This document shows, in pieces, positions 14,923 to 16,470 of a stretch of DNA of 64,000 bases. Source of the stretch: Aquamicrobium sp. (lineage in GTDB: Bacteria > Pseudomonadota > Alphaproteobacteria > Rhizobiales > Rhizobiaceae); contig JAHHDT010000001.1 of NCBI GenBank assembly GCA_019739225.1, positions 310,001 through 374,000 on the forward strand, written 5' to 3'. Numbering within the stretch: the first letter of the stretch is position 1; every line of letters starts with the position of its first letter. A program made the position numbers and the translations under genes. The notes beneath the pieces are model-generated. The model had not been told where the DNA came from and did not search any database. It saw nothing but the letters and a program-made list of their open reading frames with translations.

Positions 14923-15717
14923 ATGATCGAACGAAACCGGATGCAAGCCTTGTTCCTGCCTACCCTCGACGGCCCTCCTGTAGAGTGGCGAATCGAGCCG
15001 GGCCTGACGGACTACGAGACCGCCCTTGCGGTGATGGACGAGCGCGCCGCAGCTATCCGGGAGGCTGGCGCACCGGAGCTCGTCTGGCTGGTCGAGCATC
15101 CCCCGCTTTACACCGGCGGCACCAGTGCCGATCCGAAGGATCTGCTCGACAAGAACCGCTTTCCCGTCTTCGCGACCGGCCGTGGCGGCGAATATACCTA
15201 TCACGGCCCCGGCCAGCGGGTGGCCTATCTCATGCTCGACCTGAAACGGAGGCGTGAAGATGTCCGTGCTTTTGTCGCGGCACTCGAAGCCTGGATCATC
15301 GGCTCACTCGCACGCTTCAACGTGACGGGAGAGCGCCGCGAAGACAGGGTCGGCGTTTGGGTCACACGGCCCGACCGGCCGCCCCTGCCCGACGGAAGCC
15401 CCGCCGAAGACAAGATCGCCGCCATCGGCATTCGCCTGCGCCGATGGGTCAGCCTGCACGGCATCGCCGTGAACGTCGAACCCGACCTGTCGCATTTCGG
15501 CGGCATCGTACCCTGCGGCATCGCAGGTTACGGCGTGACCAGCCTGGTCGACCTCGGACTGCCGATCACCATGCAGGATTATGACGTCGCCCTGAAGGCG
15601 GCGTTCGAAGACGTTTTTGGCCCCGCGGCTGCCTCGCCAAGCCCTCACATGGAGCCGATGAGCAAAGCCATCGCGGTGACAAAGGCGCTCATGGTGACGA
15701 GCGAGAGGACATCCTGA
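14923..15717 (+). CDS. lipB: Octanoyltransferase LipB
   Basis: Transfers octanoate from acyl carrier protein to lipoyl domains, the first step of lipoate synthesis. From the ATG at 14923 the protein has 264 residues. The [16 protein letters not shown] motif lies near residues 87-102, the catalytic Lys164 is in [11 protein letters not shown] and the catalytic Cys198 is in VPCGIAGYG, the standard dyad. AGGAC stands about 10 bases before the start. The 3' end overlaps, on the opposite strand, the 28-codon frame at 15645-15731. Confidence 0.95.
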
Positions 15718-15731
15718 ACGAACTCGGCCAT
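15645..15731 (-). CDS. Candidate 28-residue membrane microprotein, antisense to the lipB 3' end
   Basis: A short frame with a strong translation signal: AGGAGAGAGAA directly before the ATG at 15731 and TGA at 15645-15647. The product begins MAEFVQD and continues with about 21 mostly hydrophobic residues (Val, Leu, Ala, Met, Phe) to its end, enough for one membrane helix. A sigma70-like promoter with a LexA-like box lies upstream at 15760-15788. Size, single helix and likely SOS control recall SidA of Caulobacter, a 29-residue inner-membrane division inhibitor; homology is not shown. The antisense overlap with lipB constrains the sequence, so a chance frame cannot be excluded. Confidence 0.5.
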
Positions 15732-15759
15732 TTCTCTCTCCTGTATTCGTTGTGTATCC

Positions 15760-15788
15760 TTTATGTTTCTCTTTTGTTCTCATGTCAA
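15760..15788 (-). promoter_or_regulatory. Predicted sigma70 promoter with LexA-like box for the microprotein
   Basis: On the minus strand TTGACA (15788-15783) and CATAAA (15765-15760) are separated by 17 bases. Inside the spacer the plus strand reads GTTT-CTCTTTT-GTTC at 15765-15779, which matches the alphaproteobacterial SOS box GTTC-N7-GTTC with one mismatch. A LexA dimer there would block the promoter. Transcription would start near 15753, about 22 bases before the ATG. Confidence 0.5.
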
Positions 15789-15797
15789 GCGAGAACA
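15775..15797. repeat. Inverted repeat TGTTCTC-N9-GAGAACA over the promoter -35 region
   Basis: Perfect 7-base arms at 15775-15781 and 15791-15797 enclose the -35 hexamer of the microprotein promoter and share GTTC with the LexA-like box. A second short palindrome, TGACG-AAG-CGTCA, follows at 15798-15810. The arrangement looks like an operator. Confidence 0.6.
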
Positions 15798-15900
15798 TGA
15801 CGAAGCGTCAGCATGGACGTGCCTACCTCATATGCGTGCCATTACTGACCGGCACAGGCTTCTGAATTCAGTTCGCGGGACGGTGCGGAGACAACGGCAA

Positions 15901-15938
15901 TACTGCCGTAACGAGTGCTGTTGGCCGCAGCGGCAGTA
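15901..15938. repeat. Inverted repeat downstream of the gamma carbonic anhydrase gene
   Basis: TACTGCCG (15901-15908) and CGGCAGTA (15931-15938) pair, with an inner GCTG/CAGC stem. It sits just past the stop of the minus-strand gene ending at 15943. No strong U-run follows on either strand, so a terminator role is uncertain. Confidence 0.35.
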
Positions 15939-15942
15939 AGGA

Positions 15943-16470
15943 TCAGACCTCGTTCAGCCCGTTCCTGAAACGGCGCGCATTGGCGACATAACTTTCCGCG
16001 GAAAGCCGCAGGCGCGCTGCTGCTTCACCATCCAGCTCGCGGGCGACCTTGGCCGGCGCACCGACGATGAGCGAATTGTCGGGGAACGTCTTGCCTTCGG
16101 TTATCAGCGCGCCTGCCCCGATCAGGCAGTTTCGCCCGATGCGGGCGCCGTTGAGGATGATCGCCCCCATGCCCACGAGGCTGTTGTCGCCGATCGTGCA
16201 GCCATGAAGAATGGCCCTGTGCCCGATCGTGCAGCCCTGCCCCACGGTGAGCGGGAACCCCATGTCGGTGTGCAGGACGCAATGTTCCTGAACGTTGGAT
16301 CCGTCGCCGATTGCGATCAGTTCATTGTCGCCACGCAGCACCGCGCCGAACCATATGCCGACCGCGCGACCGAGCCTGACCTTGCCTATCAGCGTCGCAT
16401 CCGGCGCGATCCACGTTGTCTCTTCATCGTCGATCTGCGGTGCGTGGCCATCGAGCGCGTATACGGGCAT
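15943..16470 (-). CDS. Gamma carbonic anhydrase family protein
   Basis: A 175-residue left-handed beta-helix protein built of hexapeptide repeats. The three zinc histidines of the family are in place: His67 (CVLHTD), His84 and His89 (GHRAILHG). Many close relatives (YrdA, PaaY type) have weak or no carbonic anhydrase activity, and some are ferripyochelin-binding-like or thioesterase-linked, so only the family is called. A small membrane protein gene lies 24 bases upstream on the same strand. Confidence 0.9.

Follow-up and report, generated by a model that had tools for sequence, protein, structure and literature searches.

A 28-codon frame opposite the 3' end of lipB in Aquamicrobium sp. looks, judging from its sequence and that of its homologues, like a real and old gene with relatives in other alphaproteobacteria. 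It is likely to be a relocated member of a group of alphaproteobacterial LexA-controlled single-helix microproteins, and would act as an SOS division inhibitor of the SidA type. The first-pass annotation of the window, i.e., the whole stretch of 64,000 nt that was analysed, had presented the frame as a candidate in one genome. This had to be corrected, as the peptide belongs to a family that is widespread. The locus is considered significant because the peptide is conserved in the family, a perfect LexA-type box precedes it in 128 of 136 homologous regions, and pN/pS and omega are low (0.32 and 0.20).

The gene lies on the minus strand at 15645-15731, with its ATG at 15731-15729 and its stop ending at 15645. 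Homologues and purifying selection mark it as coding. The product consists of an acidic short N-terminus followed by one hydrophobic helix, the single hydrophobic stretch in the 28 codons. The frame, promoter and ribosome binding site were found on the minus strand as first described. The -35 hexamer TTGACA (15783-15788, minus strand) and a -10-like hexamer CATAAA (15760-15765, minus strand; 4/6) are 17 nt apart, and the spacer contains GAACAAAAGAGAAAC. This LexA-type box GAAC-N7-AAAC, at 15779-15765 on the minus strand, reads GTTT-N7-GTTC on the plus strand and is, as had been claimed, one base off the alphaproteobacterial motif (GAAC-N7-GAAC). A strict sigma-70 scan lists no promoter at the gene because CATAAA lacks the final T. 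The Shine-Dalgarno sequence AGGAG (15738-15742, minus strand) stands 6 nt before the ATG, and the leader, counted from a predicted transcription start at about 15753 to the ATG, measures about 22 nt. The peptide had no match in Pfam (E<=1), NCBIfam (E<=10) or PHROGs (E<=1). The convergent lipB gene, encoding lipoyl transferase (Pfam PF21948), occupies 14923-15717 on the plus strand. The same-strand upstream neighbour (15943-16470, minus strand) encodes a hexapeptide-repeat protein (Pfam PF00132), gamma carbonic anhydrase-like by eye. As for the argument that the line-up of these signals makes chance less likely, it fails in the window taken alone and holds by comparison across relatives. Boxes with at most one mismatch number 38 in the window against 48.7 expected, which is chance level, so that the window by itself gives the box no significance.

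Conservation was assessed in 199 genomes of the same family. BLAST with the peptide gave a match in 93 of them at E<=10. A profile including diverged members matched 182 at E<=0.05, although with E-values taken per genome about 10 of the 199 could pass this threshold by chance; at E<=0.001, 166 were matched (counted from the result table). The same profile found 173 of the 186 good genomes. Eight of the 17 genomes left without a profile match measure 2.0 Mb or less. Four positions, M1, D7, S10 and F17, are invariant in 36 aligned sequences. For 73 distinct sequences of 28 codons, the pooled pN/pS ratio is 0.32, and omega has a median of 0.20 and stays below 1 in all 2248 usable pairs (of 2628). 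Judging from these substitutions, the selection acting on the microprotein is purifying. Searching phage and plasmid records by tblastn with the consensus peptide gave no match, and a 28-residue query may be beyond the reach of that search.

The control region is conserved as well. Upstream regions were picked by peptide match and not by promoter, and the counts leave out matches first found by the profile search described above. Distinct regions with a length of 100 nt or more numbered 143; seven of them (six prophage-like copies and one that lies within a longer frame, all without a box) were kept apart. Among the 136 distinct chromosomal regions that remained, a perfect GAAC-N7-GAAC box is present in 128, with the window among the eight exceptions. 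TTGAC occurs in 116, a Shine-Dalgarno-like motif in 129 and the ATG in 135. An earlier count on regions of at least 60 nt, including duplicates and prophage-like copies, had given a perfect box in 131 of 147. Of these 131 perfect-box regions, counted with duplicates, 77 continue with a third half-site at an unchanged pitch of 11 bp (e.g., L012 and L038), which may offer room for two LexA registers. The Caulobacter LexA motif, given as GTTC-N7-GTTC in an excerpt of the source (PMC12700426), is the reverse complement of GAAC-N7-GAAC. In the source genome, the same kind of box precedes lexA, uvrA/ssb, dinB and imuA-like genes, all named by eye. Two boxed loci of that genome carry imuA-like genes by eye (L244 and L249), and two further DnaE-type polymerase matches exist besides the main dnaE (L397 and L398), which suggests two mutagenesis cassettes.

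The family can also be reached without its protein sequence. A pattern describing the promoter only (TTGAC-N4-13-GAAC-N7-GAAC-N10-40-GGAG), and hence blind to the product, occurred at 43 places in 150 genomes of the order (reversed control 10) and at 52 distinct places in 240 genomes of the class (reversed control 9). Forty of the 43 order places and 50 of the 52 class places (54 rows, two nested) were examined, with other GGAG sites at the same loci as background. At 31 of the 40 order places, against 0 of 507 background sites, and at 15 of the 50 class places, against 4 of 557, an ATG opens a frame for 22-48 residues that include a membrane-type helix. At a further 15 of these 50 the gene is lexA by eye, which makes an unplanned positive control. 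Genes of fewer than 40 codons can thus be found through the promoter architecture of their regulator, and no protein query is needed. In the order, one family (f22; L301-L304) shows the same promoter architecture before peptides of 24 residues, in which the F and W of the remaining peptides are missing. In the class, the pattern also stands before a 208-residue protein, glutathione S-transferase-like by eye (f55; L339 and L340). Another family (f89; L332 and L333, context L382) has a boxed 28-residue membrane peptide that is not beside dnaE and looks different in sequence; it is possibly an unrelated SOS peptide. A search with CcrM as query reached a best identity of 78%, in a family holding 4 genomes, and a looser promoter pattern run alongside it was uninformative (9 rows vs 10 in the reversed control).

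Comparison of the peptides themselves points in the same direction. The best match of profile A1, which represents the window family, outside that family is a boxed, dnaE-linked peptide (L120, E 0.0016). Against 16 promoter-found peptides of other families A1 scored 31.5, where the maximum of 200 column shuffles was 25.5; when the comparison was restricted to the nine that came from outside the order, the score was 22.6, which one shuffle in 200 also attained. For the order, common descent has good support; for the class as a whole it is probable. Outside the order a class-wide HMM gave weak matches only, and the class-wide claim therefore rests on the promoter search and synteny.

The gene neighbourhood was studied in 34 context loci of 7.5-12 kb each, chosen for spread and not at random, with the prophage loci (L390-L395) left out. 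The microprotein gene adjoins dnaE in 26 of them, the commonest site seen. On the other side, lolC-lolD are found in 22 of these 26 loci; in one (L379), other genes intervene. In five more loci (L389, L402, L416, L417 and L418), the gene is flanked by lolC-lolD and, on the opposite side, by lipB; the first three share one more gene between lolC-lolD and lipB. In the remaining three (L382, L412 and L414), neither dnaE nor lolCD/lipB stands beside the gene. The window holds none of lolC, lolD and dnaE. The dnaE of the source genome lies about 65 kb from the window copy, and no perfect box was found in the 10 kb around it. The window gene is most likely a relocated copy from a family whose usual place is between lolD and dnaE. 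The simplest path would lead from lolD-[gene]-dnaE through lolD-[gene]-lipB to [gene]-lipB. The peptide was detected, with a score of at least 26 bits, in 52 of 80 named lipB loci, including loci of Mesorhizobium, Aquamicrobium, Aminobacter and Pseudaminobacter. One of the related loci (L033) likewise has a hexapeptide-protein gene as upstream neighbour, plus lipB.

A second copy, with neither box nor TTGAC, is present in six genomes (G008, G025, G050, G059, G133 and G142). All six carry a boxed chromosomal copy too, with one mismatch in G025 and perfect in the other five. Ten neighbours were scanned in four of the six contexts (L390, L391, L392 and L395), L393 and L394 being outside the scan. 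All four contexts contain phage-type genes, the matches being an integrase and a weak repressor match (L390), a repressor, exonuclease VIII and RecT (L391), a CI-like repressor, RecT and a tail-fibre-like protein (L392), and a phage-type regulator and a nucleotide phosphatase (L395).

By analogy with SidA, the following course of events is proposed. LexA, bound to the box between the -35 and -10 hexamers, would exclude polymerase and keep the promoter shut. Upon DNA damage, LexA would be cleaved and the promoter released. Since the leader is short and the ribosome binding site strong, synthesis should be fast, and a quick burst of the 28-residue peptide would follow expression. The peptide, almost all membrane helix, would then enter the inner membrane and, like Caulobacter SidA, keep the machinery that builds the septal wall (FtsW/FtsI/FtsN) inactive until the damage has been repaired, thereby blocking division at this target. 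Of the possible actions, SidA-like inhibition of the septal synthase is the best supported.

Several other readings were weighed against this one. The gene overlaps the 3' end of lipB by 73 nt (15645-15717) and extends 14 nt beyond the lipB stop. A frame arising by chance opposite a constrained coding end would fit the lack of significance of box and promoter within the window. In relatives, however, the start, ribosome binding site, box and helix run, whose conservation had been proposed as a check, are conserved where lipB cannot explain it. The peptide persists where lipB does not overlap it or is no neighbour at all. At L033 and L073, matching DNA runs to 2789 and 2792, past the lipB stops at 2723 and 2711 and into the peptide gene. 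Judged by these alignments, lipB is not the cause of peptide conservation, because only 2 of the 52 peptide-carrying named lipB loci show an overlap, of 4 and 17 nt; in 40 the gene lies at least 300 nt from the lipB stop and in 10 at 11-179 nt. The chance frame was rejected as having a negligible probability, given the omega of 0.20, the 182 of 199 family matches and the 128 of 136 perfect boxes. The antisense arrangement first described is real in the window but is no general feature, being confined to the window lineage. The 73-nt overlap appears to have come about late, when the lipB stop shifted into a gene that was already there. In this lineage, the SOS transcript might also serve as an antisense RNA lowering lipB, besides or instead of encoding the peptide. 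The tail-to-tail overlap would allow it, as would the only terminator-like site on the minus strand of 15300-16000, which lies about 215 nt past the microprotein stop and inside lipB, although a single such site against 0.8 expected is no more than chance. Nevertheless, it is the peptide that is conserved and not the overlap, seen only in the window and the two lipB loci mentioned, and such a role is very improbable.

The lasting neighbourhood with lolC-lolD, in 22 of 26 dnaE-adjacent loci and five further ones, could point to a small subunit or regulator that the SOS response adds to some other membrane system, e.g., lipoprotein export. The gene has its own LexA promoter, though, and kept it after parting from lolCD in the window lineage, so this role is improbable. 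The main rival is a LexA-controlled peptide that, as TisB or DinQ do in E. coli, lowers the membrane potential and either slows growth or brings about persistence, with no specificity for the divisome. TisB and DinQ have fewer than 30 residues each, and E. coli type I toxins have long leaders and are controlled by antisense RNA. The size class, the single helix and the SOS control would all agree with such a toxin, DinQ being described as an SOS-regulated toxic single-transmembrane peptide in an excerpt of its source (PMC3567139). The long leader of that design is, in contrast, missing here, and about 22 nt from predicted start to ATG leave no room for leader or antisense-RNA control. Moreover, the conserved acidic residue 7, F17 and a frequent W at 23-24 suggest a specific partner. 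A toxin of this kind is considered unlikely, and division inhibition in the manner of SidA is preferred.

Excerpts of the cited papers describe SidA as acting on FtsW with some FtsN contact and leaving Z rings undisturbed (PMC4211646), and a low-confidence model of SidA on FtsW has been reported (PMC13396833). In Caulobacter, sidA is CCNA_02004 (PMC10769358), CCNA_02005 is a nucleoside hydrolase (PMC3667746), dnaE and lexA are CC1926 and CC1902 (PMC1839093), and lexA is also CCNA_01979 (PMC11535069). The lexA tags differ by 77, which would put dnaE at about CCNA_02003; by this locus-tag arithmetic, which is not a map, sidA seems to adjoin dnaE. In the literature excerpts covered, which did not extend to the original SidA paper (Modell 2011), no report of SidA relatives outside Caulobacter was found. 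A broader proposal, to which slightly less than even credence is given, is that SidA, far from being peculiar to Caulobacter, is one branch of a LexA-controlled checkpoint peptide that is ancient and class-wide, is located between lolD and dnaE and was overlooked for being shorter than 40 residues; some rhizobial prophages would carry unboxed copies of it, perhaps halting host division on their own schedule. For alphaproteobacteria without SulA, the division stop after DNA damage has, to our knowledge, been worked out mainly for Caulobacter. With a family member in most genomes of the rhizobial family, usually at dnaE, the question becomes testable in symbionts, some of which become long polyploid cells in nodules.

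The likeness to SidA in size, topology and control, pointed out in the first-pass annotation, bears up, and may be extended by the usual place of the family beside dnaE. Like SidA, the microprotein is a predicted single-helix membrane peptide (28 codons here, about 29 residues in SidA). A predicted LexA-type box sits in the promoter, with one mismatch in the window and perfect in 128 of 136 relatives, and the family is most often found beside dnaE, where the locus tags also place sidA. The window copy differs in its place next to lipB, with dnaE about 65 kb away. Judged solely by position, size and control, the two are probably homologous. YneA, SosA and ChiZ are larger proteins with extra parts. 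According to excerpts of the literature, YneA of Bacillus, SosA of Staphylococcus and ChiZ of Mycobacterium are likewise membrane-anchored, damage-induced division inhibitors, but they belong to other phyla, and SosA has an extended region (PMC13396833). DidA of Caulobacter crescentus is also described as a DNA-damage-induced single-helix inhibitor of the late divisome, but it has 71 residues, is SOS-independent and acts on FtsN (PMC4211646).
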